Assembly (NCBI RefSeq): GCF_013168275.1
Contig: NZ_AP019547.1
Coordinates: 1,178,001-1,242,000, forward strand
Reading direction: 5' to 3'
DNA: 64,000 nucleotides
Source of the DNA: Candidatus Nitrotoga sp. AM1P
GTDB taxonomy: Bacteria; Pseudomonadota; Gammaproteobacteria; Burkholderiales; Gallionellaceae
Shown: positions 43,011-64,000 of the stretch, in pieces
Layout: the number at the start of each line of letters is the position of its first letter
Position numbering within the stretch: the stretch's first letter is position 1
Made by a program: the position numbers and the translations under genes
Notes under the pieces: model-generated
Told to the model about the DNA's origin: nothing
Database searches by the model: none
Seen by the model: the letters and a program-made list of their open reading frames with translations, nothing else

Positions 43011-43034
43011 CGTAATATACACTTAAATATAACG
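43011..43034. promoter_or_regulatory. Candidate ModE operator 1 (DUF2325 / modE divergent region)
   Basis: Half sites CGTAATAT (43011-43018) and ATATAACG (43027-43034) are separated by 8 bases. The Escherichia coli ModE operator has the same 8-8-8 plan with CGTTATAT and a ATATAACG-like right half. Seven and eight of eight positions agree with that ideal pair. Confidence 0.65.
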
Positions 43035-43197
43035 ATAATTCAAGCCGTTTCCGCAATAATACTGAGCGACTGAATTATTGACTTATAATATTATTTATAA
43101 TCAATAAATTATGTACAAACACCGGACGTCTGCCCGTTCGATTGAAAATCGACTAATGGATTTATTTGGGATAAACCTTATTTATTTTTGCAGTCGC

Positions 43198-44427: not shown

Positions 44428-44580
44428 CATCCAGCCAGGAAGTTTATATTACAGGCACATCGGGGCATCACTGAAAAACCTCTCGATTGCTATCCTGGAT
44501 AGTTAACCAAGCTGTTGCCGGGGTGGCTCGCGGATCCGCCGAGAAGCGCCACAGTGAATAAATACAACGAAAGGAAATCC

Positions 44581-45393: not shown

Positions 45394-45404
45394 GGACCAC
45401 CACC

Positions 45405-48090: not shown

Positions 48091-48096
48091 AATTAT

Positions 48097-48120
48097 CGTT
48101 GTATATATTTTTATATTTCG
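48097..48120 (+). promoter_or_regulatory. Candidate ModE operator 4 (porin-modABC)
   Basis: CGTTGTAT (48097-48104), an 8-base spacer and ATATTTCG (48113-48120) repeat the 8-8-8 layout, with a right half nearly identical to operator 3. It lies 28 bases before the porin gene, in line with ModE repression of molybdate uptake genes. Confidence 0.6.
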
Positions 48121-48148
48121 AGTTTAGATAGTTTACTCAGGGGAGATC

Positions 48149-49888
48149 ATGATCAAAACTTTTTATTGCCCATTAGGCAAAAAAATTAATAAGGCTAGCA
48201 ATTTCAACAAGATTACAAAATTAATAGAATTTCGAGATTTAAATATTTTCAAAATTAAAATGTCTGAATCGAGTATAAGAACTGGCATTCTGGCGAGTAG
48301 TTTGTTAGTGGCATCCCCCTATTCCGCGGCGCTGGAAAATATGCAGTTAAAACCACAAAAAGAGGAATCAAACCAGGAAATATCGGCAATAGAACAACCG
48401 CTGGTCATTGCCCAAGCGGATACCGCCTTGCCAGTACAAAAAACGACTAAAACTGAAACATCAGAAGTTAAAGCCCCCGCTAAGGCTCCGGCTCAGACGC
48501 CTAGTTATTATGTTCAATTTCGTAGTTCTGGCTTAGCCATACAAACTGAACCCCCTCGCTATGTCAAGCAAGCCAATAAAACATGGCTTAAAGATATTGA
48601 CGGTTGGCAAGATGTTAATTGGTTGGACATTGGTGTGGAAGCTCGACTTCGTTATGAATCTCGTGAAAATGACTATCGCCGAAAAACAGATACAGTGGAT
48701 GAACCCATTTCATTACGAACACGCCTTTATGCTGCTGTAAAAAACAAATTTGACCCATTACGCGCTACCTTTGAATTCCAGGATTCTAGACGTTTTAACC
48801 AGGGATACCCGTATACCAATTTGGAGGTCAATAAAACAGAATTTATTCAAGGTTATGGAGAACTGTTCTTTAAAGATGCGCTGGGGGTAGATGATCGGGG
48901 CAACGACAGGCCGCTCAGCCTGCGAGCGGGGCGTATGGCTTTTGAGTTAACAGATAAACGCTTGGTTGCACGAAATGAATATCGTAATACCACGAATAAT
49001 TTCCAAGGTTACCGTGCAGTTCTAGGCCAGAAAAATAGCGACTGGCAAGGAACTGTCTTTGCCTTTAATCCAATAGTTCGTTTTATGGAGCAAGCGGACA
49101 AAGCCAATGAAGCTCAGTGGTTCTACGGGGCTATGTTTGATGTGCGCAAATGGTCAAACGTGGTCACATTCCAACCTTATTACTACTTACTACAACAAAA
49201 TGGCAGTAAGGTAAAATATGCTTCGACGGGCGCACTTGCCACCGCAGCCGACAAAACAAATCGTGAAATTAACACTGGGGGCTTGCGGGCCTATGGGATA
49301 GTAGCCAATACCGGCATCGACTGGGACTTGAACTATGTCAAGCAATGGGGTACCGATAACAAACAGGATCACGATGCCTATGGTTATAACATGGAATCAG
49401 GCTATACCTTCAAGCATGCATGGAAACCCCGTGTCATGGCTAATTTAAGCTATGCCAGCGGCGATAAAAATCCAAATGACAATAAAAGTCAACGTTTTGA
49501 GCGTTTATTCGGCTTTGCCAGACCGTGGTCCCACACTGATTATATCCAGATGGAAAATATCCGCGCCACTAAGATTCGCGGAGAACTCAACCCTACCGCT
49601 ACCTTAAAACTTGATTTTGGCTATAGCTGGTACAAACTGGCCAGTGCTACAGACCGCTGGGCTGGGGGAAACAACTTACGCGACGCAACGGGAAAAAGCG
49701 GCAAGGATATAGGTGATGAATTTGACATGCGTGCACAATTTCCAGTCAATAAACACTTATCGATGGTTGTAGGCTATTCCTACTTCATGGCGGGAGATTT
49801 TGCCAAAGCAACATCCCAGAAAGTAATGCCTGGACGAGGGGAAAACTCACACCTAGTGTGGATAGACGCTACTGTAGTTGCATTTTAA
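48149..49888 (+). CDS. Alginate-export-type outer-membrane porin in the modABC operon
   Basis: The 579-residue protein has a long basic N-terminus, a hydrophobic signal (GILASSLLVASPYSAA) and a Pro/Ala/Gln-rich linker. A beta-barrel follows with VEARLRYESRENDY, LRAGRMAFELTDKR and a closing aromatic strand (LVWIDATVVAF). This is the AlgE/alginate-export barrel group, used by many bacteria for uptake of small anions or acids. ATG 48149 has a strong AGGGGAG site. Only 27 bases separate it from modA, so it is probably the outer-membrane entry route for molybdate, which is inference from context. Confidence 0.8.
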   Translation: MIKTFYCPLGKKINKASNFNKITKLIEFRDLNIFKIKMSESSIRTGILASSLLVASPYSAALENMQLKPQKEESNQEISAIEQPLVIAQADTALPVQKTTKTETSEVKAPAKAPAQTPSYYVQFRSSGLAIQTEPPRYVKQANKTWLKDIDGWQDVNWLDIGVEARLRYESRENDYRRKTDTVDEPISLRTRLYAAVKNKFDPLRATFEFQDSRRFNQGYPYTNLEVNKTEFIQGYGELFFKDALGVDDRGNDRPLSLRAGRMAFELTDKRLVARNEYRNTTNNFQGYRAVLGQKNSDWQGTVFAFNPIVRFMEQADKANEAQWFYGAMFDVRKWSNVVTFQPYYYLLQQNGSKVKYASTGALATAADKTNREINTGGLRAYGIVANTGIDWDLNYVKQWGTDNKQDHDAYGYNMESGYTFKHAWKPRVMANLSYASGDKNPNDNKSQRFERLFGFARPWSHTDYIQMENIRATKIRGELNPTATLKLDFGYSWYKLASATDRWAGGNNLRDATGKSGKDIGDEFDMRAQFPVNKHLSMVVGYSYFMAGDFAKATSQKVMPGRGENSHLVWIDATVVAF

Positions 49889-49915
49889 TTCCAACCAATG
49901 AAAAGGAGCTTTACC

Positions 49916-50680
49916 ATGATTAAAATTTTTCACACCTTTGCTATCGCAGTAGCATTCGCATTGGGATCCAGCATCGCCATGGCGGAAAACATCACGATTG
50001 TCGTCGCTTCCAGTATGAAATTCGCTATGACCGATATCGTGAATAAATTTAATGCCGAACACCGCAATGATGAGGTAAAGACTATCTATGGCGCATCAGG
50101 AAAGTTCACCTCACAAATTCAGAATGGTGCGCCTTTTGATATGCTTTTTGCGGCGGACACTAATTTTCCGCAGATACTGAAGAATGAGGGGCTAACAAGC
50201 ACTGATCCAGTAGTTTATGCGATTGGCCGACTGGTAATTTGGTCTTCAACGACGGATGCCACTAAGCTGGCCCTGCAAAAACTGTCTGAATCGACCATTC
50301 GTAAACTGGCCATCGCCAACCCCGAAATTGCACCCTACGGTATGCGTGCCAAAGAAGCGATGAAATCAGCCGGAGTGTGGGAAAAAATCAAGGACAAGCT
50401 CGTCTTTGGTGAAAATGTTGAACATACCGCACAGATGGTAAGTACCGGGGCAGCCGATGCCGGGCTTATTCCCCTTTCGCTGGCGCTTAATCCTACAATG
50501 GTTAAACAAGGTGGCTATAGCTTGATTGATGACGGTCTTCATGAACCATTGGCCCAAGCCTTCGTAATCACTAAACGAGCGAAGGACAGTGTACTGGCAC
50601 GGCAATTTGCGGCTTATTTCCAGACGCCCGAATCGCGCAAAATCGTGGAAAGCTATGGTTTTGTGGTGCCTAAAAAATAA
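49916..50680 (+). CDS. modA: ModA, periplasmic molybdate-binding protein
   Basis: The 254-residue protein (ATG 49916 behind AAAAGGAGC; an ATG at 49898 lies upstream of that site) has a signal peptide ending SSIAMA. The ModA pattern follows: VVASSMKFAMTDIV, YGASGKFTSQIQNGAPFD and FAADTNFPQIL. The serines in these loops normally hold the oxyanion. It delivers molybdate or tungstate to ModBC. It follows the porin and precedes modB by 11 bases. Confidence 0.93.
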   Translation: MIKIFHTFAIAVAFALGSSIAMAENITIVVASSMKFAMTDIVNKFNAEHRNDEVKTIYGASGKFTSQIQNGAPFDMLFAADTNFPQILKNEGLTSTDPVVYAIGRLVIWSSTTDATKLALQKLSESTIRKLAIANPEIAPYGMRAKEAMKSAGVWEKIKDKLVFGENVEHTAQMVSTGAADAGLIPLSLALNPTMVKQGGYSLIDDGLHEPLAQAFVITKRAKDSVLARQFAAYFQTPESRKIVESYGFVVPKK

Positions 50681-50691
50681 CAGATTGGAAA

Positions 50692-51417
50692 ATGGATGTT
50701 GGAGTATTGATATTGGAATACTTAAGACAAAGCTTGAGTTTGAGTGCAGAGGATTGGACGGCAATCTGGCTTACGCTCCGGCTTTGTCTATACACCACCT
50801 TAATTTTAATGGTGATTGCCACACCGATTGCGTGGTGGTTGGCTAGCGGGCGTTCTACCTATCGAACCGCCGTGCAGGCTGTGGTTGCCTTGCCGCTGGT
50901 ATTACCACCCACCGTGCTTGGATTTTATCTCTTGATCACGCTTGGCCCGCGCGGCTTCATCGGCGGAGCGTTAGAGGATATGGGGCTCCATCATCTTGCC
51001 TTTACTTTTGAGGGCATATTGATCGGCTCAATATTGTATTCCATGCCATTTGCCGTACAACCCTTGCAGCAAGCCTTCACTAATCTGGGGCGACGCCCGA
51101 TCGAGGTGGCGGCTTCGCTGGGGGCTGGTCTAATAGATCGTTTCATTAGCGTCATTTTACCGATGACCAAAGGGGGCTTTATCGTCGCCATGACGCTCAC
51201 TTTCGCTCACACCATGGGCGAGTTCGGGGTCATCCTGATGGTGGGCGGCAATATTCCGGGCGTGACCCACGTCTTATCAACCACAATCTATGGCTATACT
51301 GAGGGCATGCAGTATGCCGCTGCGGGAAGACTGAGTCTGATGCTATTGATCTTCGCATTTATCGTGCTGTTTGTGGTGTACCGGTTTAATCGAGGTTTTG
51401 AGATGGTAAAACCATGA
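50692..51417 (+). CDS. modB: ModB, molybdate ABC transporter permease
   Basis: The 241-residue permease has five to six membrane segments, the ModB pattern PLVLPPTVLGFYLL, and the EAA loop EVAASLGAGLIDRFISVILP, which contacts ModC. It forms the inner-membrane channel for molybdate. Its stop overlaps the modC start by 4 bases. The first residues are uncertain: ATG 50692 is used here, but TTG 50707 would also fit. Confidence 0.93.
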   Translation: MDVGVLILEYLRQSLSLSAEDWTAIWLTLRLCLYTTLILMVIATPIAWWLASGRSTYRTAVQAVVALPLVLPPTVLGFYLLITLGPRGFIGGALEDMGLHHLAFTFEGILIGSILYSMPFAVQPLQQAFTNLGRRPIEVAASLGAGLIDRFISVILPMTKGGFIVAMTLTFAHTMGEFGVILMVGGNIPGVTHVLSTTIYGYTEGMQYAAAGRLSLMLLIFAFIVLFVVYRFNRGFEMVKP

Positions 51418-52484
51418 CCTTGTCGGTACGTGCCCGAATTACCCATTCAAATTTTATTTTTGATGTCGACGTTGATTGGCCAGCGGAAGGTGTCACCGTT
51501 CTGTTTGGACGTTCCGGCTCGGGTAAGACGACATTGCTGCGACTGATTGCCGGTCTGGAGCGTCCGAACGACGCGCGCGTCAGCTTTCGTCATGAAGTTT
51601 GGCTGAATGGACGCCACTGGGTTCCATTGCATCGGCGACGGATCGCCATGGTTTTTCAAGAGGCCAGTTTATTACCCCATCTGTCTGTACGCGAAAATCT
51701 CCTCTACGGTTACAAACGCACACCAATTGCGGAGCGTAAACTCCATCTGGATGAAGTGGTTCGTATGTTGGGCATCGAAAATATTATTGAGCGTAATATT
51801 AATAAACTTTCCGGTGGAGAGCGTCAGCGTGTTGCGTTGGGGCGTGCGCTGTTGACCAGTCCGCGCCTGCTCTTGATGGATGAGCCCCTTTCGGCGCTCG
51901 ACACGCAAACCAAGCGTGAGATTCTCCCCTATCTCGAGCGCCTGGTTGAAGAAGCGGATGTACCGATTGTCTATGTTACCCATGCGCCCGCCGAAGTAGA
52001 GCGTCTTGCAAACCGGGTGGTGTTTCTACGGGATGGACGCATTGATCGCGTTGAAACGCTTAAACACACCTTATCTCGGTCGGATTCCCCGCTGTTTCAC
52101 GATGATGGTGTGGTGTCAGTTATCAAGGGCCAGCTGGGGCAGAAAGAGCATGGGTTAACGTCTTTTTATGTTGGCCAGGATTGTTTTTGGTTGAGCACCC
52201 CTATTTATTCAGACAGCGTTGGCAAGTCACAACGTTTGCGTATTCTTGCGAAGGATGTTGGGATCGCGCTCACGAAACCGGAGAACACCAGTCTGTTGAA
52301 TGTATTGCCCGTGACCGTGCAGCGTATAGACCCCGCTCGTGAGGGGCACGTGCTGCTGGGTTTACGGTTAAGTGAAGGGCAAAATCTGTTCGCTGAAATC
52401 ACTGCATGGTCACGTGATCGACTCGACTTACGCAAGGGACTTATCGTGTATGCCATGATCAAGACGGTTGCGTTGGCAGAGTAA
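51414..52484 (+). CDS. modC: ModC, molybdate ABC transporter ATPase
   Basis: The 356-residue ATPase has Walker A GRSGSGKTTLL (about 33-43), signature LSGGERQRVALGRAL and Walker B LLLMDEPLSALD. A C-terminal TOBE/Mop-like domain follows from about residue 290, as in other ModC proteins, where molybdate binding inhibits transport. It closes the porin-modABC operon. All catalytic motifs are intact. The next gene is convergent, and I see no obvious terminator in the 80 bases between them. Confidence 0.93.
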   Translation: MTLSVRARITHSNFIFDVDVDWPAEGVTVLFGRSGSGKTTLLRLIAGLERPNDARVSFRHEVWLNGRHWVPLHRRRIAMVFQEASLLPHLSVRENLLYGYKRTPIAERKLHLDEVVRMLGIENIIERNINKLSGGERQRVALGRALLTSPRLLLMDEPLSALDTQTKREILPYLERLVEEADVPIVYVTHAPAEVERLANRVVFLRDGRIDRVETLKHTLSRSDSPLFHDDGVVSVIKGQLGQKEHGLTSFYVGQDCFWLSTPIYSDSVGKSQRLRILAKDVGIALTKPENTSLLNVLPVTVQRIDPAREGHVLLGLRLSEGQNLFAEITAWSRDRLDLRKGLIVYAMIKTVALAE

Positions 52485-52565: not shown

Positions 52566-53645
52566 TTAATGTGAGCCTAATGAAGGTTTACTGGCTTTCT
52601 TTCTGTTCAGCGTCGGTATTATCTCCTGGGCAAAGAGAAGCAGCGAGCGATGCAGGGCCACTGGTGGCAGATAACCAAAAAAGGCGGGTAGCAAGTTGAA
52701 GTGACGAATGCCTATGCTGTCGCGCAACTCGATTATTTTTTGACGGCAAGTGTCTGGAGAACCGGCCACAACCATATGCTTGATAAACAAATCTGGTTCG
52801 AGATTAGCCATGTCAATCACGCCTTTTGCCCGTTGGGACTGCCCCACCATGCGCAGTTTGGCCAGCAATTGCGGCAGTACCGGCAACAAATCACGTCGAG
52901 CGGCTTCATCTGATTCGGCGACATAAGTGAAACGTCCAAAAGGTACCATTGACGGATCGCCCCCGGCTTCAACGAAGCAAAGCAAATTATCGCGCGCATG
53001 GGCCGCCGACTGGATGCCGTGAATGATTAAACAATGTCCGTTAATGGCAGTCCAGCGTACCATTTCCTCGCTGTAGCTACCGATGTACAGTGGTAAATGT
53101 GGCTGTTGTACAGGTTTCGGCTGCACGTCGAGCGGCGCTCCGGCCACCATTATTGGGTGCTTTCCCCAACAATCCAGGACTTGTTGCAGTACAGAAGGAA
53201 AATCCTTGGATGCTTTCACCCTGTCTACCCCAAATGCCTCAAGATACCGTTCGTTACCTCCACGAGAGACGCCGAAATCAACCCGGCCGCGTGACAAACA
53301 ATCCAGGCTGGCCAGTTCTTCAGCTAGCCTGATCGGGTGGTGCAACGGTAACAGCAATACCGAAAAACCTAAGCGGATGGTACGAGTGCGCGCTGCCATC
53401 GCCGCCGCTGCCACCAGCGGCGATAATACATAACGACCGCCGTGGCGCTTTTGCCGCGACTGAAAATGCTCTTCATTCAGCCAGAGGGAATGGAAACCTT
53501 GACGCTCGGCACGCCGAGCCAAAGCTGGCCACAATGCCGGGGCACTTGATTCAAATCCAGCGCCTGAACCGGAAAGTCCAAAGACCATGTCTTGTTTGCT
53601 AACGAGTTCGGGACTTTGCGAGTTAGTAATAGATTTTTTTTTCAT
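52566..53645 (-). CDS. Luciferase-like (LLM class) flavin-dependent oxidoreductase
   Basis: The 359-residue protein is a bacterial luciferase-like TIM barrel: FHSLWLNEEHFQSR near the N-terminus, RLGFSVLLLPLHHPIRLAEE and GRVDFGVSRGG follow. Such enzymes use reduced flavin (FMNH2 or F420) to oxidise small substrates; the actual substrate is unknown. It ends the long minus-strand metal-chelate operon, 44 bases after the ABC ATPase. In that context it could modify or break down a chelator, but this is only a suggestion. Confidence 0.82.
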   Translation of the reverse strand: MKKKSITNSQSPELVSKQDMVFGLSGSGAGFESSAPALWPALARRAERQGFHSLWLNEEHFQSRQKRHGGRYVLSPLVAAAAMAARTRTIRLGFSVLLLPLHHPIRLAEELASLDCLSRGRVDFGVSRGGNERYLEAFGVDRVKASKDFPSVLQQVLDCWGKHPIMVAGAPLDVQPKPVQQPHLPLYIGSYSEEMVRWTAINGHCLIIHGIQSAAHARDNLLCFVEAGGDPSMVPFGRFTYVAESDEAARRDLLPVLPQLLAKLRMVGQSQRAKGVIDMANLEPDLFIKHMVVAGSPDTCRQKIIELRDSIGIRHFNLLPAFFGYLPPVALHRSLLLFAQEIIPTLNRKKASKPSLGSH

Positions 53646-53689
53646 AAATGATCTCCTTTTAGATAAGCAAGATAAGAGAGCTGTAGATT

Positions 53690-54454
53690 TCAGATGCGGG
53701 GTACGCAGGCAACCGGCTTACCGTGAATTGCTACCACGTCAATTGCAGTGCAGTACAAGTCTGACAACATTTCGGAACGAAGGACTTCGGCTGCTTGACC
53801 CGCTATAGCAATACGTCCATTTGCGATGGTGACAACACGCGTACCGAGAAGTAATGCATGTTCAGGCTGGTGGGTAGTGAAAAGTATCGCCATGCCGTCT
53901 GCGGCAAGATCACGGATAGTACATAGGACGCGTGCTTGATTGCCAAGGTCAAGGCTTGCAGTCGGTTCATCCATCAGGAGAATGCGTGGCTCCTGTGCTA
54001 ACGCGCGAGCGATCAGGGCCAGTTGGCGCTCACCCCCACTAACTTGGTTAAAGGGTCGTTGTGCGAGGTGATCAATTCCAATGCGGGCCAATGCCGAGTA
54101 TGCAATATGTCGGTCATATTGCCCGGGCAGGCCCAGTGGTGTCAGGTGCGGCGTGCGCCCCATCAGAACCATGTCTAAAAGTGTCAACGAACTATCGACA
54201 CTGGCTTGCGGCACATAAGCCATTATGCGTGCCAATTGACGTGCAGAGCTGAATACATAGCCATCAATGCACACCTTACCGCGTTCGGCGCGCAGGGCTC
54301 CGATCAGACAGCGCAACAAAGTTGTTTTGCCGGTGCCGTTAGGGCCGAGCAGACAAAGCATTTCTCCTGGCGTCAATGTAAGATTGATGCCATCCAGCAC
54401 GGGCGGCAGATCCGCGGCACGGCGATACACCAAGTTTTCTACTGTTAAAACCAT
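53690..54454 (-). CDS. ABC ATPase of the FecE/BtuD type
   Basis: The ~254-residue ATPase has Walker A GPNGTGKTTLLRC (about 37-49), signature VSGGERQLALIARAL and Walker B ILLMDEPTASLD. It belongs to the iron-siderophore/B12/molybdate-chelate ABC group that pairs with FecCD permeases. The start is ATG 54454, overlapping the permease stop by 10 bases. The identical TGGTT(T/C)T(A/G)A junction occurs at the other permease, whose ATPase is missing. It therefore probably powers whichever permease is functional in this operon. Confidence 0.88.
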   Translation of the reverse strand: MVLTVENLVYRRAADLPPVLDGINLTLTPGEMLCLLGPNGTGKTTLLRCLIGALRAERGKVCIDGYVFSSARQLARIMAYVPQASVDSSLTLLDMVLMGRTPHLTPLGLPGQYDRHIAYSALARIGIDHLAQRPFNQVSGGERQLALIARALAQEPRILLMDEPTASLDLGNQARVLCTIRDLAADGMAILFTTHQPEHALLLGTRVVTIANGRIAIAGQAAEVLRSEMLSDLYCTAIDVVAIHGKPVACVPRI

Positions 54455-54999
54455 TGACGTTTTATCCACATGAGAACAGTAACAAGTACGGATAACCCCA
54501 ACACTACAGGGATAAATCCCAGCGGTATTTCAGTAGAGAAAACATTACGAAAGAGATAATCAATCAGCAGTAGATAACCGTTAGCCAATATGGCTGATAG
54601 CAGTACTCTAGTGTGCATTGATCCATCTAGAAAACCGGCAAGGTGTGGCACGAGCAAGCCGGCCAAGCTGACCGCACCAACAATGCTGATTGCTATTGCT
54701 ACAGTCAGGCTCGCGACCAGCAGCACCAGTGCTGACTTCTGTGGCGGAAACATTTTCGACATATTGTGTGGCGATTTGAACGGCTCCGAAAGATTTGTCA
54801 TGGATTGTGGAGCGATCAGACGGGCCTGAATAATTTGGCCCAGCGTCTGACGTGCTTGCGACGACATTTGCAGAACAAAAGTAATGACGACAGCGGCCAT
54901 CAGGAAGACACCGAGTAACTGTACAGCTAATTGCGGCCAGCCGATTGGTAACATGCGTGGCAAACCACTAGTACTGTGTAATGCCTCTGTTGGTAACAT
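54445..54999 (-). CDS. Half-length FecCD-type permease
   Basis: The 184-residue protein contains one middle membrane segment (QLAVQLLGVFLMAAVVI), a stretch without similarity, and a good FecCD C-terminal part (IAISIVGAVSLAGLLVPHLAG ending in KRQWF). Normal FecCD permeases are ~330 residues with ten segments, so about half is lost. The ATG shares one base with the DUF364 stop (TAATG), so it is still translated. It is either a decayed duplicate or a small auxiliary membrane protein. Confidence 0.7.
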   Translation of the reverse strand: MLPTEALHSTSGLPRMLPIGWPQLAVQLLGVFLMAAVVITFVLQMSSQARQTLGQIIQARLIAPQSMTNLSEPFKSPHNMSKMFPPQKSALVLLVASLTVAIAISIVGAVSLAGLLVPHLAGFLDGSMHTRVLLSAILANGYLLLIDYLFRNVFSTEIPLGFIPVVLGLSVLVTVLMWIKRQWF

Positions 55000-55757
55000 T
55001 ACACTGCCTTCGTCAAACGCAAGGCAGCGCGCTTTATAGTTTTGCCAAAGAAGTGATCTCCGGAACTGACCTCGGCCAAGATTTCCAGTACCTCGTCCGG
55101 CGCCAGTATGCGGGTGCCTCCAACAACAGTAATGCCACGCCGTGCATAGGGCTCGAAGATCAGCGTCGCCGTCGGGCCGATCACTCCCGCCTCGGCTCGC
55201 AGCCGCAACCGCTTCAGCAGGCCGGTCAGCGTGCTATCGATTGGAGTGCTGGCGGTAGTGACGAATACATCGACACGAGATATCACCTCGGGCGCACGTT
55301 CGGTTAACACACCGAATGGCAGTTTCTCTGATACCAGCGTAGTCATATCGAGTTCGAGAACGTTAAAAGGGTAGCCGCTACTGATCAACTTACGCATGTA
55401 CAGCGGAAAGGCACCGACTAGCGCGACTCGCTGGCGGGGTGCCAGCAACAGCGCGTCGAAAGCATCGCCCTGGTGTAGATTGACCCGGGAAGACGTGCCG
55501 TCGGGCGACCAGGGCGATTCTGCCAAGACGTTCAGCATGGGCTGGGTTGAACTCGGACAAAACACCGTCTCAGGTACGCTTTTTATCGGTATCGCGCGCA
55601 AATCGCCGACGGGGTTATCAAAATCGGTGTCCGTAAAAAATATACCGAGTGTTGGACGTTCCAAATGTAATGAGCCAGCCTCGACCCCGAGACGGTCGAG
55701 CATGGCTGCGCGCAGTTCAGCAATGAGAGAGCAGGTCTTGGTTCTCGTTTCCATCAT
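54999..55757 (-). CDS. DUF364 protein (putative heavy-metal chelation domain)
   Basis: The ~252-residue protein (ATG 55757 behind GAGGGG) has the DUF4213/DUF364 layout: an N-terminal fold with GIFFTDTDFDN, then a Rossmann-like C-terminal part with RVALVGAFP, DVFVTTASTPIDST and TATLIFEPYARRGITVVGG. DUF364 has been called a heavy-metal chelation domain and is often encoded beside FecCD-type metal transporters; its reaction is unknown. It lies 7 bases after the methyltransferase-like gene and is coupled to the half permease. Confidence 0.82.
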   Translation of the reverse strand: MMETRTKTCSLIAELRAAMLDRLGVEAGSLHLERPTLGIFFTDTDFDNPVGDLRAIPIKSVPETVFCPSSTQPMLNVLAESPWSPDGTSSRVNLHQGDAFDALLLAPRQRVALVGAFPLYMRKLISSGYPFNVLELDMTTLVSEKLPFGVLTERAPEVISRVDVFVTTASTPIDSTLTGLLKRLRLRAEAGVIGPTATLIFEPYARRGITVVGGTRILAPDEVLEILAEVSSGDHFFGKTIKRAALRLTKAV

Positions 55758-55764
55758 GCGCCCC

Positions 55765-56826
55765 TCACTCGCTCGCTGGACAATGGGCAAAATGTAGTTT
55801 GGTATTGCCGTACTCGCCAGCCAGGTCATCGCGTTCGGCATTGATCAGCCCGGCCTCATCCAGACATTTGCAGAACTGTTCGACGTGGCATAGCTGGTGG
55901 CTGTTGGTCAGCATTCCCTTGTCCAGATCGCGCATGCCACCCGGGGCGGTTTCGCAAGCTTCGAGGCAGAACCAGTGAGCGCAACACAGTTCACCTCCCG
56001 GTAACAGGCGAGAGGCGATAGCGGCCAGCGAATTGGCAGTGAATTTGCGCACCGAATAAAGGTTGTGAAAAAGAACCGCGTAATCGAATAACTCTGCGGT
56101 CGGTGGATCGAGCGGTGTGCCCGCTACGACGCGGCAGCGTCCAGCTAGTCCGCTTGTAGCGATAATTTCTTCGGTATGCGCCAAAGCGTCCGGCATGACG
56201 ACTACAGTAACGCGCACATTCGTAAATTGTTGGCAGAGCGCAGCGGCGAGCAAGCCGTTGTCTCCATCGAAGCAAAGCAGGTTACGCACGAGAGAGAGAT
56301 CACGGCTTGTTGCCAGGTAGGCAACAAGCCGGCGTGCCTCTCCTAAAAATGGATGTAACGTCAAGGGCAAGGCCTTCGCACGTGTCTTTGGTGTCCATCC
56401 TTCCGACATGAATCCCGTAAGGTCAGACCAGCCGCAGGATGAATCGTACAGATTATCGATCACTTTCGCCTGGCACCATGGACTCGTCGCGCACAAGACA
56501 TCGCTCATTTCTTGCGCCAAGGCATAAGCGCCGTTCTGCCTTACTATCAAGCCGGCGTCTTCAAGTGCCTGCAGGAAACCGCCGAGATGGTTGCCACGCA
56601 GCCTCAGCGAGGCAGCGATTGCTGATTTTTCTGCTGGTCCGTAGCGCTCCAGCCAGTCGAACAGGCCACTCTTATAGCCTGCGCGCAGCACCTGGAAGGC
56701 CTTGAATCCATCACCGATGCGGCGAATGGCAGCAACCGACGGTGGCGGTTCGAGGGTGTTGAGATCAACCTTGCCACTTGTCAGATTGATATCCATATCC
56801 ATCTTCCTATTCGCATTCATCTTCAT
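55765..56826 (-). CDS. Methyltransferase-like protein with winged-helix N-terminus
   Basis: The 353-residue protein looks like a small-molecule O-methyltransferase: an N-terminal dimerisation/winged-helix part (about 30-110; AGYKSGLFDWLERYG), then a Rossmann domain. The SAM loop is unusual: NLLCFDGDNGLLAAAL replaces the common DVGGGTG. Cysteines and histidines are frequent near the end (LCHVEQFCKCLDEAG). It could modify a metallophore or bind metal itself. ATG 56826 has a clear AGGAG site, and the DUF364 gene follows after 7 bases. Confidence 0.7.
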   Translation of the reverse strand: MKMNANRKMDMDINLTSGKVDLNTLEPPPSVAAIRRIGDGFKAFQVLRAGYKSGLFDWLERYGPAEKSAIAASLRLRGNHLGGFLQALEDAGLIVRQNGAYALAQEMSDVLCATSPWCQAKVIDNLYDSSCGWSDLTGFMSEGWTPKTRAKALPLTLHPFLGEARRLVAYLATSRDLSLVRNLLCFDGDNGLLAAALCQQFTNVRVTVVVMPDALAHTEEIIATSGLAGRCRVVAGTPLDPPTAELFDYAVLFHNLYSVRKFTANSLAAIASRLLPGGELCCAHWFCLEACETAPGGMRDLDKGMLTNSHQLCHVEQFCKCLDEAGLINAERDDLAGEYGNTKLHFAHCPASE

Positions 56827-56860
56827 GTTTTATCTCCTAACGTTAATGATGTGAATCAAA

Positions 56861-57886
56861 TCATTTTGCTATTTGCAGGGTGCGTGGTCCGCCCGAAAGA
56901 ATCTCAGTGGCCTGGGATTGCGTGATGGTGATTCCAAAAAGTTCGTGGTAAAAACGCCGCGTTTCAGCTACCAGATCGACGTCTGCAAACAGCTTCGAAT
57001 GAAACTGCTTGGCTGCCCACAAGACAGTGAGCGGTTGCTCAGCCGTACGGTTTCCCCATGTATGCGCGCCGCAGGGCGCCACCAGAATTCTCCCGGCACG
57101 TACTGCTTTAAGGCCAGAAAAGCGTGGCTCACGTCGAACCACCTCGGCCTCTTCGTACCCGGAAACAATCATGATGTCCGGATCCCAGGCAAGCAGTTGT
57201 TCCATGGTGAAGCTGCGTGATTCGACGCTACGATTATCGTTGGTGACACTTTCGCCGCCAGCAGAACGAATCCACCATTCAGCAACCAGATGGGGTTGAG
57301 TCAATGTAGCTGGGCTAAAAAAAAGAACACTCGGTCTTGCGGAAGCGCCATGACGTAACCTTTGGGAAACTTGGGTAAGGATGGCATCGAAATATTTGGC
57401 ATAGCGCTCGGCAGCTTCCGGTTTGTGATAGAGCTGACCGAGTAGACGCACCGCTGTTTTTATATCTTCCGGCTGACGCCAGTTGAGATAGAGTGCCGGC
57501 AGTCCTGTGCGGCGTAGTGCCTCGGTACTTACCCGATCCATGCTCAGTACCGCGTCGGGCGCCGCTCGCAGTATGGATTCAATGTTGGCCGTACGGTCAT
57601 GGTTTTGAAGTGAGTCCAGCAACGCGGTATGGGGAGCGAACACCGTCTGATACCCCCAGCGCGGTTTTTTTGCGAATTCCGGCAGGCCATTTACGATACT
57701 CCGGCCTTCGCCAATAGCAAAAACCAAGCTGTTCAATACTGGCACCGCACCGATAGTGGCAATGCGCTCGACACGCTCCGGAACTGTTATAGGATTGCCC
57801 GCCATGTCGTGCAGCACACGCATTGGCGCGGCCTGCACCAATGGCAGGTATAGAACAAAGATCAAGAACATGATTCGGTTGAGCAC
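56861..57886 (-). CDS. Periplasmic binding protein for a metal chelate (BtuF/FecB-like)
   Basis: The 341-residue protein starts with GTG 57886 behind AAGGAAAC, giving a signal peptide (MFLIFVLYLPLVQA). It has the two-lobed TroA/BtuF-type helical-backbone fold, with VPERVERIATIGAVPVLNSL near the start and AWDPDIMIVSGYEEAEV in the second lobe. It should hand a metal complex or cofactor to the FecCD permease encoded just upstream. A longer open frame to 58192 exists but runs back through the permease gene and is not its true start. Confidence 0.85.
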   Translation of the reverse strand: MLNRIMFLIFVLYLPLVQAAPMRVLHDMAGNPITVPERVERIATIGAVPVLNSLVFAIGEGRSIVNGLPEFAKKPRWGYQTVFAPHTALLDSLQNHDRTANIESILRAAPDAVLSMDRVSTEALRRTGLPALYLNWRQPEDIKTAVRLLGQLYHKPEAAERYAKYFDAILTQVSQRLRHGASARPSVLFFSPATLTQPHLVAEWWIRSAGGESVTNDNRSVESRSFTMEQLLAWDPDIMIVSGYEEAEVVRREPRFSGLKAVRAGRILVAPCGAHTWGNRTAEQPLTVLWAAKQFHSKLFADVDLVAETRRFYHELFGITITQSQATEILSGGPRTLQIAK

Positions 57887-57928
57887 GAGGTTTCCTTGTT
57901 TCAATGTAATGAGACGCAGGCCACCTGA

Positions 57929-57976
57929 AGGCCCCGACGCGAGGTGGATAACCAGATCTTTGACACTCAGAACCAT
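57929..57976 (-). pseudogene. N-terminal scrap of a lost ABC ATPase gene
   Basis: The permease ends TGG TTC TGA, and ATG 57976 overlaps it exactly as the intact ATPase start overlaps its permease at 54454. The scrap reads MVLSVKDLVIHLASG, close to the intact MVLTVENLVYRRA. Similarity to an ATPase then ends, and the binding-protein gene begins about 40 bases on. The ATPase was evidently deleted from this copy. Confidence 0.65.
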
Positions 57977-59016
57977 TGGCGCCTCGTTTTTACCAGTACA
58001 ACGACGAATACAGGCGCGCCAAGTATGGCAGTGACTATGCCAAGAGGCAGTTCTGCCGAAAATGCGCTTCGGCACAGATCGTCTACCAGCAGCAGATAAC
58101 CGGCACCGAGCAGAATTGAGGTGGGCAACAGAACGATATAAGCAGGGCCAACAATGAGGCGGGCGAGATGAGGCACGAGCAGCCCGATCCAACCAACGAC
58201 GCCAGAAATACTCACCGCCGCTGCCGTCATCAAGGTCGCCGCCGCAATCAGCGCGACACGCAAAGTGCTTACTGGCACGCCGAGGGTGCGCGCTTCGTCG
58301 TCACCAGCTTCCAGTACCTGTGTCGGCCAGCGCAGCAAAAACAGCACGGCCATGCCAACAAGCGCAAAAGGGGCTGCCCAAGCGAGATCACCCATACTGA
58401 CGCGACTCAATCCACCCAGCAACCAGAAAACAATGGCCGGCAAGATGTCGGTGGGATCAGCAGCAAATTTTAGTGCCGAAGTCAGTGCCTGGAACAGTGC
58501 CGAGACAACCAGCCCGGCTAGCACCAGCACCAGCGCTGAACCCTGTCCTAAGCGACTGGCGATAAACATCGCCGCGCCGACCGCGATAATGCCACCGGCG
58601 AAGGCTGAACCCTGCATCGCCAGTGCTCCGCCGTGTAGCAGCATGACAAGCGCGGCGCCAAAGCCGGCTCCGGCAGATACACCAAGGATGGCTGGCGAAG
58701 CGAGAGGGTTGCGGAACAGCGTCTGGTAAGCAACCCCCGCTGCTGCGAGGCTGGCGCCTACCAGCATTGCTGCCAATACGCGTGGCAAGCGCACCGCCAG
58801 TACCACATTATGGACAGCCGGCGGCTGCACGGACGGCTCACCCGACAGTGCCGACCAGAGCACGTCGAGCACTGCAGCAGACGAAAGCGAAAAATGGCCG
58901 AGCCCCATGGAGACAATAGCGGTAACCATGACCGCAAACGATAGCAACGCCAAGGTAGCGCTGTGAGCACGCCTGGGCGCCGCCGTCACGGCAATGGAGG
59001 GATTATTATCCATCAT
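57967..59016 (-). CDS. FecCD-family ABC permease, full length
   Basis: The ~349-residue permease has about ten membrane segments, LPRVLAAMLVGASLAAAGVAYQ near the start, NPLASPAILGVSAGAGFGAAL, and VSISGVVGWIGLLVPHLARL before the last segments. This is the normal FecCD/BtuC length and pattern, used for siderophore, B12, heme or molybdate-chelate import. ATG 59016 is favoured (MMDNN); a start at 59046 would add a polar stretch and nearly touch the receptor gene. Its own ATPase has been lost. Confidence 0.88.
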   Translation of the reverse strand: MMDNNPSIAVTAAPRRAHSATLALLSFAVMVTAIVSMGLGHFSLSSAAVLDVLWSALSGEPSVQPPAVHNVVLAVRLPRVLAAMLVGASLAAAGVAYQTLFRNPLASPAILGVSAGAGFGAALVMLLHGGALAMQGSAFAGGIIAVGAAMFIASRLGQGSALVLVLAGLVVSALFQALTSALKFAADPTDILPAIVFWLLGGLSRVSMGDLAWAAPFALVGMAVLFLLRWPTQVLEAGDDEARTLGVPVSTLRVALIAAATLMTAAAVSISGVVGWIGLLVPHLARLIVGPAYIVLLPTSILLGAGYLLLVDDLCRSAFSAELPLGIVTAILGAPVFVVVLVKTRRQWF

Positions 59017-59047
59017 TCTGGCACTCGTCCCGCTCACGCTTCGCACA

Positions 59048-61327
59048 CTAGAATTTTGCGCTTACCGTCATCGCCACCGTTCTTGGTGCACCAGCGTAAT
59101 AGGTGGGATTGGCGTTGAGGTCGAGATCGGTAGCGGATATTTGACCGATATAATTTTTATCGAACAGATTGAGCACCGACATGCTTACGTCAAGATTCTG
59201 CACGAGGGAAATATTACGCCAATGGTAAACCAGATGCAGGTCGGCGAGAAAATAGTCGTCGACCTTCTGTGTATTAAGTGTATCGCCATAGCGCTTACCG
59301 ACATAGCGCATAATTGGCGCGGCATTCCAGTTCCCATAACGCCAGTCAAGGCCGAGCTTGGCGAGTATTTGTGGCGCATTGGGTACCTGTTTGCCATCGG
59401 TAGGTGTAACTGCGCCAGCCTTAGACTGGATATCTCCGTCGAAAGAAAACCTGTTATACGAAAGGGCAAATATGCTGGTTAGACTACTCGTATGGCGGTA
59501 ACTGCCCTCCAGTTCGACGCCGATGGCGATGGCACGCGCCACGCTCTGGAAGTTGCTGACTTTAACCAATTGGTCGTAAATGCTCACTTCCTTATCATGT
59601 GATAGGGAATAATAGAAGTTGGGCGCCAGCGACAAGCGTTCACCTTGATAGCGAAGACCGATGTCGATATTGTCTGAAATTTCTGGCTTCAGGTTGTTAA
59701 ATACCTGTTGCAAGCTAATTCTTTGAGCAACGTAGGCGGCGCGGTTGGAATTATAGTTGGAAGCTGCCGGCCCCCAATCGGCACGCCCAATACGTCGGCT
59801 GTAAGCGGATGTCAGTGCGAGGTCTGATCGCAGTTCATGGCGTAGTGATAGATTGGGTAACCACTCGCGAGTGGTCTTGGCGGCTACTTGTTGCCAAGGA
59901 TCGAGAGACGGATTGTAGGTCCAAATCTGGTCGTAGGATACATCGGGTAGGCCAGCGGTGTTGTAATAAGAGAACGTGGGCTGCTTTTGTTGGGCCAAGC
60001 GGATACCGCCTGAAATGGTCGTTGCGCTGGAGCGATGGGTAACCTGCAAGAATGGATTATTAAACATGTGGGCACTTTGCTTCGAGAGTACTGCCCATTT
60101 TGAAAATACTAGCCCGCCATTTGCTTGCGGGGTGTAATCTTTCTGGTAAACAGGCGGCGGCGGCGATTCCATATTCATCCACCAATAGCCTGCGGAAACA
60201 TCCAGCATCGGCGAAATTTTCAGATCATACTGCGCGATGAAACCCTTCTGCTGATGCTCAACATCCCAACGGCGAACGAGCGCAGTAGTGGGATTCGGGT
60301 TAAACAGGAAATACCCTTTGTTGTCACCCCAATATGGGCGAACGCTGACAAGACCATTATCGCCGACCGGCATCGAAATTTTGGCGAGAACGGCGGTATC
60401 GTCAAAATCACTCCGGTTGTAATCGTACCAAAGCTGGAGGTTACCCGGCGTGAGCGTCTTGTTGAAGTCGAAGTTACGCCAATTCGACTTGACTTGAGCT
60501 TGGGTATAATTCATCGGCCGGTAGTCGTTGCCATCAATGTGGTTGTTTACAGCGAACAATTCAATTCGGGCACCATTGCTAAAGGTCTGGGCAACGCCAG
60601 CGGTAAAATTGACGCGGTTTCCGGGAGGCTCACCCGCTCCCTTCCACTTATCGGCTGTCATGTGAGACACGGAAGCGAAAAACGATGTGCCAGAATCGCC
60701 CAATCGTCCACTATCGAAGCGCGCGAAAGTTCTGTTGAAATTGTAGGATCCGAAGCCTTGGCGAACATAGGCACCTGCTTTTTCGTCGGGCCGGAGAAGA
60801 CTCATGTTCATCGCACCAGTCGTGTTGGATACTCCGAGGCCCGCATAAGCGGGCATGGCACTGCGGTATAATTCAAAGCCAGCTACATTTTCCAGATCGA
60901 AAAGTTCATTATTTCCAACAAGACCGGTAAATGGCACACCTTCAACAGTACGTGCCAAGTGGAAATCGCCCTTGCCACGCACATTGATATTACGCCCGCC
61001 TCTGAGATTAAGTCCGTAACCATCAGACGATTCCGTATTGACCGAAGCCATCAGGTCTGTTAAGCGATATGGGTTGGACTGCACTTGTCCACCCAGAATA
61101 GCGATACCTTCGCGTGAAACTTTACTGACCGTCCAAGGTTGCAAGCTGGGCTGTGACAGCGCTGAGACTTTAGGGGCAGTTACAAAAACCTCGCTTAAAA
61201 CAGGCGCATCTTTGTTGTCAGTGGTGGCGGCATCCAGTGTTACTTTATCGTCGGCAAAGGTTGGTGTGGCTGCAAACAAAACAGCGAGTGCGGCCAGTAA
61301 TGGTTTACATTTAAGTGATTCATGCAT
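59048..61327 (-). CDS. TonB-dependent outer-membrane receptor
   Basis: The 759-residue receptor has a signal peptide (LLAALAVLFAATPTFA) and a plug domain with LNLRGGRNINVRGKGDF. A 22-strand-type barrel ends in the aromatic-terminal strand RTVAMTVSAKF. It imports a chelate too large for porins, driven by TonB. It directly precedes the permease gene, so receptor, binding protein and permease form one import route. The ligand cannot be read from sequence. The 207 bases upstream contain no gene. Confidence 0.9.
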   Translation of the reverse strand: MHESLKCKPLLAALAVLFAATPTFADDKVTLDAATTDNKDAPVLSEVFVTAPKVSALSQPSLQPWTVSKVSREGIAILGGQVQSNPYRLTDLMASVNTESSDGYGLNLRGGRNINVRGKGDFHLARTVEGVPFTGLVGNNELFDLENVAGFELYRSAMPAYAGLGVSNTTGAMNMSLLRPDEKAGAYVRQGFGSYNFNRTFARFDSGRLGDSGTSFFASVSHMTADKWKGAGEPPGNRVNFTAGVAQTFSNGARIELFAVNNHIDGNDYRPMNYTQAQVKSNWRNFDFNKTLTPGNLQLWYDYNRSDFDDTAVLAKISMPVGDNGLVSVRPYWGDNKGYFLFNPNPTTALVRRWDVEHQQKGFIAQYDLKISPMLDVSAGYWWMNMESPPPPVYQKDYTPQANGGLVFSKWAVLSKQSAHMFNNPFLQVTHRSSATTISGGIRLAQQKQPTFSYYNTAGLPDVSYDQIWTYNPSLDPWQQVAAKTTREWLPNLSLRHELRSDLALTSAYSRRIGRADWGPAASNYNSNRAAYVAQRISLQQVFNNLKPEISDNIDIGLRYQGERLSLAPNFYYSLSHDKEVSIYDQLVKVSNFQSVARAIAIGVELEGSYRHTSSLTSIFALSYNRFSFDGDIQSKAGAVTPTDGKQVPNAPQILAKLGLDWRYGNWNAAPIMRYVGKRYGDTLNTQKVDDYFLADLHLVYHWRNISLVQNLDVSMSVLNLFDKNYIGQISATDLDLNANPTYYAGAPRTVAMTVSAKF

Positions 61328-61534
61328 TTAAAACTTTCCTATGCTTTAGATAAATAATGGCACCAAGCTTGATGGCAGATCGGGCGGCTCAACGATTAGC
61401 TGGAGATTGCTGACAGGGTGCACAAAGAAATTCTCAACAAGCGACAGAGCAAGCCTGGTCAATAAACTTATTACGCAGGGCCATCACCTATGTCGATGAC
61501 CCCGGTACCTCCACGCGCCTCTTCGTCGGAGCGA

Positions 61535-62068
61535 TTATTCGACAATCCTGCGTACCTCGATCTCTTTTAGCCACTTGACATGGCGCGGACCGGTGCGGAT
61601 ATCTTTGGTAGAAATCAGTGCGATACGCCCTTCTTCTTTCGCTAAGGGTTGCCCGTCTTTTTCGAAGAACACCATGACTCCTTCTCCGACCGGAGAATTG
61701 AATATTTCATTCAATGAAAATACGACCTTATAGTCATCACTGGCGATAGCGATGATGGCCATTTTTTTGACATCATTGTGATGGTGTGAAACGACTACTG
61801 CCTTTTCTAGAAGGTCACGGAGCAGAACGCCTTTCATTTTTACAGGCTTGCCTCCAAACTGACCGGCAACCTGAGTTTCGCTGATTTGATGAGCGGGAAA
61901 CTGCTTCAAATCGTCTACGTTCAGGGTGAGCTTGTGTTCGACGACGCCAAAAACAGAAATGCTCGTTGTTTCGAACTTGGATGGGTCGGTTACGATACCG
62001 GCAGCAAAGGTGCTTCCGGCCAAAAGGACAGCGGCGAGGCAGAAACTGCTACGAATGAAGTGCATCAT
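61535..62068 (-). CDS. Secreted molybdopterin-oxidoreductase-like small protein
   Basis: The 177-residue protein has a signal peptide (FCLAAVLLAGSTFA) and a fold resembling the molybdopterin-binding (sulfite-oxidase) domain at reduced length: LNVDDLKQFPAHQI, MKGVLLRDLLEKA and IRTGPRHVKWLKEIEVRR. No conserved Cys ligand for Mo remains, and the mature protein contains no cysteine, so it is not a normal molybdoenzyme. It sits between two TonB receptors. A role in periplasmic ligand handling is possible but untested. Confidence 0.7.
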   Translation of the reverse strand: MMHFIRSSFCLAAVLLAGSTFAAGIVTDPSKFETTSISVFGVVEHKLTLNVDDLKQFPAHQISETQVAGQFGGKPVKMKGVLLRDLLEKAVVVSHHHNDVKKMAIIAIASDDYKVVFSLNEIFNSPVGEGVMVFFEKDGQPLAKEEGRIALISTKDIRTGPRHVKWLKEIEVRRIVE

Positions 62069-62084
62069 GGATTTTTCCTTTTAA

Positions 62085-64000
62085 TTAAAATTGATAGCTG
62101 GCTTTGGCAAACCACATACGCCCAGGATTTGGAAACCCGTTTGCGAGCGAGTAATTCTTGTCTGACAGGTTGTTGACGCCCACTTCGGCAAAGAGGCTTT
62201 TGGTGGGACGGTAGACCCCTTTCAGATTCATGGTGGTGAATCCCGCGAGTTCCACCGTGTTTGATACCCATCTACTGCTGTTGTGTTCGACGAAGCCAAC
62301 GAGGTCGATATAGCCATTCAGATGGGCAATTGCATTGGCAGTCAGCTTCTGCCGCGGCACATCAATGACTTTATTCGTCGGATCACTGATATTTTTAAGA
62401 TCGGTATAAGTGTAGTTGCCACCTAATTCCATCCAGGAAAGAACTGAGCTGCGCAATCCAAGCTCAATTCCCGATGCGTGTACCCTGCCAATATTCTGCA
62501 TCTGACATTTGGCAGTAGATATGCAACTGGAAGCGACCGGTCCGACGAATTGCGATTGAATCTTGTCGCTGATATCGCTGTAATAAATGGCCGCCTCAGC
62601 TTTGGCACCTTGCCATGGTTGGCCTTGGTAACCAATCTCATAATTAATGGATTGTTCGGGTTGCAAACCCGGATTTTCAATAAAGGAGCCTAAGCGTTGG
62701 GAATAACGATCCTTGAGGGTAGGCAAACGCGTTTTTTGCGCTACCGTAGTGTAGAACCGAACCTTTTCCGACCAGTCGTAGAACAACCCGGCCTGCGCAT
62801 TATTGGCTGATTTGGCACTGGGTAATGAATACGGATTGCCCAGGTTGAAGACCGTATCAGGCCGAAGTTGATGGTGAGCAAGGCCAAGGGAAAGATTCAG
62901 CGCGGGATTAATCCGGATATTGTCTTCTGCCGCATAGGACACCAGTGTGTCCTTGAAAATGGTGGTAGTACTTGCAAAGGCATCCAATTCCGTATGTTCA
63001 TCGGTCTTGTAGTGTGTGACTAAGCGCACGGTATGTGCACGAAAGCGGACTGACTCCAGCTCAATCGAGCCGCCACTGGTACGGTCGTTGTATATACTGC
63101 GCCCGGTTGCGACACTTCCCGAGCCAGAAGTCTTCAATTTGGTGTAGGTGCCGTCGGTATAGCTGTCGACCTCATTATCAAATTTATCGTGATAAAGGCG
63201 AAATTTCAAAGCTTCGGAGCTTCCCAGTGTGGTTTTTGAAATGAAGTAGAGACTTTCCTTATTCCAGTAGGGCCACTTCCAGTAGCGAGCGGCAGCGGGG
63301 TCGGTAGACTCCGGCTGTCCCTTTTCACCATTCTGTTTGTAGTAACTGATCGTATATTCGTCACTGGCGTTTGGCGTCAGGCCGACCTTGAGGGAAAGTT
63401 TGTCATCCTTGCGGTAAGAGTTATTTCTTTTACCGCCGTTTTCGGTGGCTGTTGGCCTAAAATCGGACGACAGCGGAAAGTAATCGCTCTCCAAGTACGA
63501 TACGCCAGCCTGCAGATACCATTTTCCTTGGTTGGTACCCACATTGACCTGCCCCAACCGCTCATTGCCAGACCCGAAACCAACCGAGGCATCGCCCTCA
63601 AATATGGCTTTTGGCTTACGGGAGATCAAATTAATAGCACCCCCGATGGCATTGGGGCCATACGCGACCGAACTGAATCCTTTAGCAAGCTGGATGGCGG
63701 CAAGATCAGCGGTAGTAAAGCGATTAAAGTCCACATAGCCGTCATACGGGACGTAAACCGGAATGCCGTCAATGAAAAGTGGAACTTGGCGCGAATCGAA
63801 ACCTCGGACCGAGATCATTTTTTCATTGCGGGAGTTGTTCGACAATGTGACACCGGAAAGCAGATTCAGCGCGTCACCAACGTTGTCGCGGTTGAATTGC
63901 CGCATTGCTTTCTGCGTGACAACCGATGCAACCTGATCTTCACCGATTTCGCCGACATGCAAGGGGGTTGCAGAAACAGTGATGGTGCCCAGTTCAAATG
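62085..64000 (-). CDS. TonB-dependent receptor (5' end cut by window edge)
   Basis: The frame is open to the right edge. Visible are the end of the N-terminal region (GTITVSATPLHVGEIGED), the plug (NRDNVGDALNLLSGV, ISVRGFDSRQVPLFIDGIPV, YGPNAIGGAINLISRKPK) and a barrel ending in MWFAKASYQF. It is a second outer-membrane receptor, of the siderophore/vitamin B12 type, 16 bases upstream of the small periplasmic protein gene. It is probably the first or an early gene of the chelate operon. The signal peptide and TonB box lie beyond the window. Confidence 0.9.
   Translation of the reverse strand, partial: FELGTITVSATPLHVGEIGEDQVASVVTQKAMRQFNRDNVGDALNLLSGVTLSNNSRNEKMISVRGFDSRQVPLFIDGIPVYVPYDGYVDFNRFTTADLAAIQLAKGFSSVAYGPNAIGGAINLISRKPKAIFEGDASVGFGSGNERLGQVNVGTNQGKWYLQAGVSYLESDYFPLSSDFRPTATENGGKRNNSYRKDDKLSLKVGLTPNASDEYTISYYKQNGEKGQPESTDPAAARYWKWPYWNKESLYFISKTTLGSSEALKFRLYHDKFDNEVDSYTDGTYTKLKTSGSGSVATGRSIYNDRTSGGSIELESVRFRAHTVRLVTHYKTDEHTELDAFASTTTIFKDTLVSYAAEDNIRINPALNLSLGLAHHQLRPDTVFNLGNPYSLPSAKSANNAQAGLFYDWSEKVRFYTTVAQKTRLPTLKDRYSQRLGSFIENPGLQPEQSINYEIGYQGQPWQGAKAEAAIYYSDISDKIQSQFVGPVASSCISTAKCQMQNIGRVHASGIELGLRSSVLSWMELGGNYTYTDLKNISDPTNKVIDVPRQKLTANAIAHLNGYIDLVGFVEHNSSRWVSNTVELAGFTTMNLKGVYRPTKSLFAEVGVNNLSDKNYSLANGFPNPGRMWFAKASYQF

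Follow-up and report, generated by a model that had tools for sequence, protein, structure and literature searches.

Gene content of the import locus

The DNA analysed in this study, hereafter called the window, is a 64,000-nt stretch of Candidatus Nitrotoga sp. AM1P (NZ_AP019547.1, positions 1,178,001 to 1,242,000), and our subject is a putative molybdenum-chelate import locus that lies from position 52,566 onward. An earlier note on this DNA had described ten same-strand genes here, including two TonB receptors, an ATP-binding cassette (ABC) importer, a DUF364 protein, a methyltransferase-like protein and a luciferase-like (LLM) oxidoreductase. The ten genes were found at the claimed place, on the minus strand, and their domain classes were backed by Pfam (Table 1), with a TonB receptor, a periplasmic binding protein (SBP), a FecCD permease and an ATPase all present together. 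The first gene, the receptor TBDR1, is cut by the window end (64000), its ATG lying at window coordinate 64139 (L004:16139). The intergenic gaps are 16 nt between TBDR1 and the small Oxidored_molyb protein OXMOL and 207 nt between OXMOL and the second receptor, TBDR2; the other genes are separated by at most 80 nt or overlap slightly. Judged from these coordinates, one or two transcripts are plausible.

The two receptors and the importer of the earlier description are present, and a second functional permease was rejected. That gene is a chimera of a TonB N-terminus and a FecCD C-terminus, which leaves one complete FecCD gene. The start of the chimera resembles the TonB encoded behind DUF364 in an Accumulibacter locus (L008; 53% over residues 21-65) and its end resembles FecCD, suggesting that tonB and a second permease were joined by the deletion of what lay between them. 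Locally, TonB is represented by this fused N-terminus alone; other parts of the Nitrotoga genome hold three stop-free TonB_C matches, so that a TonB is available. Because no metallophore biosynthetic gene was recognised at the locus, the proposal that the system makes a metallophore is unsupported, and the proposal that it imports one and strips or modifies it remains.

The N-terminus of OXMOL is signal-like (by eye), and because its sole Cys sits there, a Cys-ligated Mo centre is unlikely. An OXMOL homologue lies near modE/modA in one of the related loci described below (L017).

The same ten-gene order was found in Nitrotoga SPKER (L005/L030). Judged by this preserved order and by the recurrence of the core in other genera, the gene set is not a product of chance. 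SPKER also carries, between modC and LLM (L005:713-3713), an extra gene for a TonB receptor and one for a probable hydroxylase of the PKHD type (both named by eye); at this place the window has neither.

ModE-type operator

Scanning the whole 3.0 Mb genome at three or fewer mismatches with the ModE consensus of E. coli given in PMC545781 yielded four sites, against none for the reversed pattern. The best site of the genome matches 19/20 consensus positions and lies 53 nt upstream of the TBDR1 start, and this one-mismatch operator is common to three Nitrotoga genomes, namely the window, SPKER and a genome designated G006. Two further sites lie near the molybdenum genes of the window, and the fourth, inside a long open reading frame (ORF) resembling aconitase (by eye), is probably a chance match. 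A full-length ModE is encoded in the genome, and these sequences suggest that the locus is under ModE control, presumably by repression.

The earlier note had looked to either a Fur or a ModE box upstream of the first gene. The ModE half of this expectation was borne out, and Fur control was rejected, since a search of the upstream 850 bases with the Fur consensus revealed no box (best site, 8/19 mismatches; 149/200 shuffles had fewer).

Conservation of the cassette in other genomes

One profile scan of 84,980 species genomes with a 29-row DUF364 alignment yielded 25 loci, of which 24 were counted (L008-L031, one being SPKER); L032, a 60-residue match with no cassette, was dropped. A scan with the window DUF364 alone as the query found no relative. 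Genes at the counted loci were called with our own codon-usage script, which missed the DUF364 gene of L016, sitting directly behind the methyltransferase-like gene (MT); in L031 the DUF364 gene is fragmentary, and in L025 the contig end cuts it. The names of recurring families were tested on representatives, and the other members were named by BLAST clustering.

A methyltransferase-like gene directly precedes DUF364 at 18/24 loci (12 MT-A and 6 MT-B), so that the conserved neighbourhood of these two genes, which the earlier note had proposed to look for, does exist. The type A cassette, found at 12 loci and not always complete in the fetched stretch, consists of a receptor, FecCD, ABC, SBP, MT-A and DUF364 in varying order; its hosts include Accumulibacter, Thauera/Pseudothauera, Thiobacillus, Rhodanobacter and Xanthomonas, and at L008, L013 and L014 tonB follows with exbBD nearby. 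The type B cassette consists of a TBDR1-like receptor (42-43%), DUF2478, SBP, FecCD, ABC, MT-B and DUF364, and occurs at five loci in Acidovorax and relatives (L010, L021, L023, L025 and L031), each with modD, modE and/or modAB, as well as on the short contig L024. Nitrotoga combines a type-A importer with one receptor of each type.

Over the 24 loci, FecCD was counted at 17, SBP at 18, a receptor at 16, DUF2478 at 11 and TonB/ExbB/ExbD at three. MT and DUF364 recur at homologous loci as the earlier note would have them, and LLM does not: it was found at one locus, that of Nitrotoga itself, and was rejected as a core part in favour of a local addition. DUF2478 had no match in the Nitrotoga genome, though present at 11 related loci, and was likewise rejected as a local part.

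Molybdenum genes accompany many of these loci, with ModE at seven, ModA at six by clustering (eight by tblastn), ModB at six and ModD at three. For ModE, 0.085 would be expected from the density in 60 genomes of the order (43 domains of at least 75 bits and 60 genome sizes, hand-counted); a formal probability is meaningless since the loci are related and not independent, and the excess is plain. At four or fewer mismatches, ten loci had 13 ModE sites between them, against two for the reversed pattern. Eleven of these sites stand no more than 230 nt upstream of a gene of the cassette or of DUF2478; the remaining two, both in L017, precede other genes. Taken together, a mod gene or a ModE-like box is present at 14/24 loci. 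The cassette is rare in the order, because a search for the MT family at E 1e-40 was positive in two of 399 genomes (its own included, with at most five candidates scored in most genomes).

A further type-A locus, outside the 24 counted, was seen in Chitinivorax sp. PXF-14 (L047, G176:C8:33000-52900), with the order DUF364-tonB-exbB-exbD and a ModE-like box (three mismatches) at 14424. A radical SAM protein, possibly a further pathway enzyme, is encoded beside the type-A cassette at L008:2638-3753, L013:1201 and L047:4086-5090. In Accumulibacter (L008:11944-14391), tonB and exbB are separated by a NapA gene and by two genes that probably encode cytochromes (by eye), placing a Mo enzyme inside the cassette.

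Molybdenum neighbourhood in the window

The window also holds modE, the Mo storage protein genes with Mop proteins beside them, and modABC (Table 1). A DUF2325 protein (42551-42892) is divergent from modE across a ModE-type box, and a ModE-like site at 44392, before the Mo storage genes, has 2/16 half-site mismatches and more than three mismatches from the published consensus. A porin-like protein (name by eye; 48149-49888) is encoded by the first gene after the box before modABC and is perhaps a molybdate channel. Nitrotoga is a nitrite oxidiser, and its key enzyme NXR carries a Mo cofactor (PMC6050957).

Table 1. Genes and ModE-type sites of the import locus and of the adjoining molybdenum genes, in window coordinates
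Feature	Position	Strand	Remarks
TBDR1, TonB-dependent receptor	62085-64139	-	First gene; 684 aa; Pfam plug and barrel (62085 onward)
OXMOL, small Oxidored_molyb (PF00174) protein	61535-62068	-	Pfam
TBDR2, second TonB-dependent receptor	59048-61327	-	Pfam barrel; related to receptors of type-A cassettes
FecCD-family permease, complete	57967-59046	-	Pfam full FecCD
SBP, periplasmic binding protein	56861-57886	-	Pfam Peripla_BP_2
MT-A, methyltransferase-like protein	55765-56826	-	O-methyltransferase dimerisation domain, below Pfam cut-off
DUF364 protein, degenerate in Nitrotoga	54999-55757	-	Pfam DUF364; much of DUF4213 part deleted
Chimera, TonB-like N-terminal anchor and FecCD C-terminal part	54445-54999	-	Pfam: FecCD C-terminal part only
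ABC ATPase of FecCD importer	53690-54469	-	Pfam ABC_tran
LLM (luciferase-like) oxidoreductase	52566-53645	-	Pfam Bac_luciferase
ModE-type operator of TBDR1	64193-64220 (G000:C1:1242193-1242220)		Just past window end; 28 bp; 1/20 mismatch
ModE-type box	43009-43036		3/20 mismatches; between DUF2325 gene (116 nt) and modE (404 nt)
ModE-type box	48095-48122		3/20 mismatches; 26 nt upstream of porin ORF that precedes modABC
modE, full-length regulator	43441-44253	+	Above TIGR00637 cut-off
Mo storage protein genes	44515-46238	+	First matches MoSto subunit beta, E 1.1e-156; second named by resemblance
modABC	49898-52484	+	Convergent with import locus

Selection on the locus in Nitrotoga

The local DUF364 protein matches its profile (PF04016) with 94.8-96.6 bits against a cut-off of 23. 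A large portion of its DUF4213 part is missing (PF13938 gave no match at E 0.001). Of 107 columns that do not vary among 25 relatives, 41 are altered or deleted in Nitrotoga, compared with 10 of 86 columns invariant in 11 relatives for MT; two metagenome proteins (P0002 and P0003; 81% identical) were grouped with Nitrotoga in this comparison. The ratio of nonsynonymous to synonymous substitution rates (dN/dS), from a single pairwise comparison of the window with SPKER by our own Nei-Gojobori script, was 0.35 for DUF364, 0.44 for the chimera and 0.065-0.15 for the other eight genes. These values suggest relaxed selection on DUF364 and on the chimera, the latter being kept in two Nitrotoga genomes. 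The earlier idea that DUF364 is a working partner in this genome was not supported, and the DUF364 step in Nitrotoga is probably failing or dispensable.

No stops were found in the window's reading frames of the locus genes. In G006, the operator, TBDR1 and OXMOL are kept (96%), MT has a stop, and SBP and DUF364 are fragments; no match for TBDR2, FecCD, LLM, MosA or MosB was found in the 20-kb stretch. Among 19 Nitrotoga genomes, its own included, TBDR2 is present in two and MT in three. Because of the loss pattern in G006 and this patchy presence of TBDR2 and MT in the genus, TBDR1-OXMOL may be a separate module, perhaps delivering Mo to ModABC.

Methyltransferase-like protein and import components

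The predicted model of MT-A (mean pLDDT 79.8) has an O-methyltransferase fold by Foldseek, with RedM, SibL, PigF, DsyB and BchU among the matches (best E 3.5e-16), a result that reports the general fold only. Its motif I, LCFDGDNGL, departs from the canonical S-adenosylmethionine (SAM) motif when judged against canonical paralogues sitting beside MT-A in L014 and L018: the first acidic residue and the first Gly are replaced by Cys and Asp in 13/13 aligned MT-A members. A segment HWFC.E.C...H..C is conserved, its middle (289-313) having pLDDT below 50. MT-A may be a poor binder of SAM or have a different ligand. Should it still transfer methyl groups, a catechol that became O-methylated would be expected to lose its chelating ability and free the metal.

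The earlier note had named close kinship to B12 or heme receptors as evidence that would speak against it. The best PDB matches of the receptors were 1.8e-16 (colicin I receptor) and 2.2e-10, with BtuB at 4.1e-13, and all NCBIfam receptor models among the matches listed (best 25 of 29 for TBDR1, window-cut form) fell below their cut-offs. By sequence, TBDR1 and TBDR2 do not appear close to characterised B12 or heme receptors.

Interpretation and alternatives

Based on the operator, the gene content and the conserved neighbourhood, we propose that the locus serves ModE-controlled, TonB-dependent import of a Mo (or W) chelate with cytosolic unloading, to which we assign a probability of about 0.7. 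The match of SBP to HI_1472, the adjoining ModE, ModABC and Mo storage genes and the low dN/dS of eight genes also speak for this reading. The ligand would be a metal chelate, as suggested by the operator and the context. The preference of the earlier note for Mo/W over Fe as the ligand class was supported by the ModE operator, by the absence of a Fur box in the upstream scan, by the Mo genes or boxes at 14/24 loci and by the MT-DUF364 pair at 18/24.

In the proposed mechanism, a low Mo level in the cell would cause ModE to leave the operator before TBDR1. With energy from a TonB encoded elsewhere, TBDR1 and TBDR2 would bring chelated Mo/W into the periplasm, where the binding protein would hand the chelate to a FecCD2-ATPase importer of the BtuCD/MolBCA type. 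In the cytosol, the MT-like protein, elsewhere paired with full-length DUF364, would modify the chelator or free the metal, which could pass to the Mo storage protein, Mo cofactor (Moco) and NXR. More tentatively, and with less confidence than we place in chelate import as such, the system might represent a dedicated "molybdophore" economy in which ModE-controlled TonB receptors and a FecCD importer feed a repurposed MT-fold protein, with its altered SAM motif and conserved Cys/His segment, and DUF364, the two of which unload Mo/W from its chelator in the cytosol; if so, DUF364 would gain a defined function.

Several observations weigh against chelate import as proposed. DUF364, the most suggestive enzyme, is by its sequence decaying in Nitrotoga, and the two receptors may not serve one pathway, because G006 keeps TBDR1 and OXMOL with the importer lost. 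The best PDB matches of SBP are uncharacterised or iron-type (4ovk, 2.7e-32); HI_1472, which we take to be MolA, ranks fourth in this sequence search (E 1.6e-7), so SBP is not closest to MolA. Ten of the 24 loci (L014, L016, L018, L020, L022, L024 and L026-L029) have neither clustered mod genes nor a box at four or fewer mismatches; some of them lie on short contigs, and in L024 tblastn found a ModA-like protein at 26%. Of the two genes flanking the box near modE, the divergent DUF2325 gene is the nearer one. Moreover, a T run comes after the 44-nt palindrome that surrounds the ModE site (L004:16185-16228), and on the strand of the gene the palindrome has the score of a terminator-like hairpin; from its sequence it could be an operator, an attenuator or both. 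The operator reading is favoured because the box arms at eight sites from other genera extend only 0-2 further bases.

Among the rival explanations, all of them unlikely, the most probable is that ModE controls the import of a different ligand, an iron chelate or some other compound whose supply has to be matched to Mo status, as in the building of Fe-Mo enzymes such as NXR. The receptor and FecCD families have mostly Fe-siderophore members, the best PDB relatives of the receptors are siderophore-type, and ModE regulates more than transport genes; against this, the upstream region scanned has no Fur box, and modABC, modD or modE stand in the same gene blocks in several genera. Somewhat less probable still is a decaying remnant with little function left. 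The patchy presence of TBDR2 and MT in the genus, the damage in G006 and the relaxed chimera and DUF364 fit such a loss, but eight of the ten genes remain under low dN/dS, the window frames are stop-free and the operator is kept in three genomes.

We regard uptake of a corrinoid or a pterin/Moco precursor by a FecCD-type importer as very improbable. The permease and the ATPase do score best to B12 and F420-0 transporter models, but they reach less than half, or not much more than half, of the cut-offs; no B12 gene is found among the ten locus genes, and the ModE operator is present. The DUF364 structure paper of 2010 proposed flavin- or pterin-like ligands (PMC2954201), which would suit a cofactor.

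Relation to known systems

Known substrates of TonB-dependent uptake are Fe, B12, Ni and Cu. Such uptake has also been linked to lanthanides (PMC11317620), and Mo is reported to be low in most freshwaters (PMC3440940). If chelate import is correct, Mo/W would join the TonB-dependent ligands, both in a nitrite oxidiser and in Thauera, Accumulibacter and other relatives. This would make it easier to understand how bacteria that have Mo enzymes (NXR, Nap) manage at low Mo, and the locus would be a possible new supply line for scarce Mo in a nitrite-oxidising bacterium. It would also give a testable substrate for DUF364, whose Pfam name is "putative heavy-metal chelation". Among the matches listed in open-access PMC titles and abstract openings, no ModE-controlled TonB-dependent Mo-chelate import system was described.

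MolBCA is the FecCD-type molybdate/tungstate ABC importer of Haemophilus. The Nitrotoga locus resembles it in having a FecCD-type importer with a periplasmic binding protein that matches HI_1472, but adds TonB receptors, an MT-like protein, DUF364 and a leading ModE-type operator, and its binding protein has better relatives than HI_1472. Adjacent in the window, ModABC with ModE shares the operator type but belongs to another transporter superfamily, whereas the import locus has a TonB-dependent outer-membrane step. The receptor, binding protein, FecCD permease and ATPase follow the architecture of TonB-dependent siderophore/metallophore import (CirA, CntO/FoxA and FhuBCD); the operator, in contrast, is ModE-type and not Fur-type, cytosolic MT and DUF364 are added, and no synthetase was recognised. 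An outer-membrane Mo route has been cited for P. aeruginosa, in which ModA is secreted by the H2-T6SS and IcmP is the outer-membrane protein (PMC11734730); there the secreted ModA is the carrier, and the passage cited mentions no FecCD importer, DUF364 or methyltransferase.

As for the enzymes, MT-A shares the fold of the class I O-methyltransferases RedM, PigF, DsyB and BchU but differs in its Cys/Asp motif I and its conserved Cys/His segment. The Nitrotoga DUF364 belongs by profile (96.6 bits) to the family of Dhaf4260 (PF04016), but the Nitrotoga copies have lost a large portion of the DUF4213 part, together with many residues that relatives conserve. In 2010, DUF364 had already been linked to Mo, W, V and Fe transport through its gene neighbours (PMC2954201); the present analysis adds to that suggestion the operator, the context at the receptor level and a methyltransferase partner that recurs.

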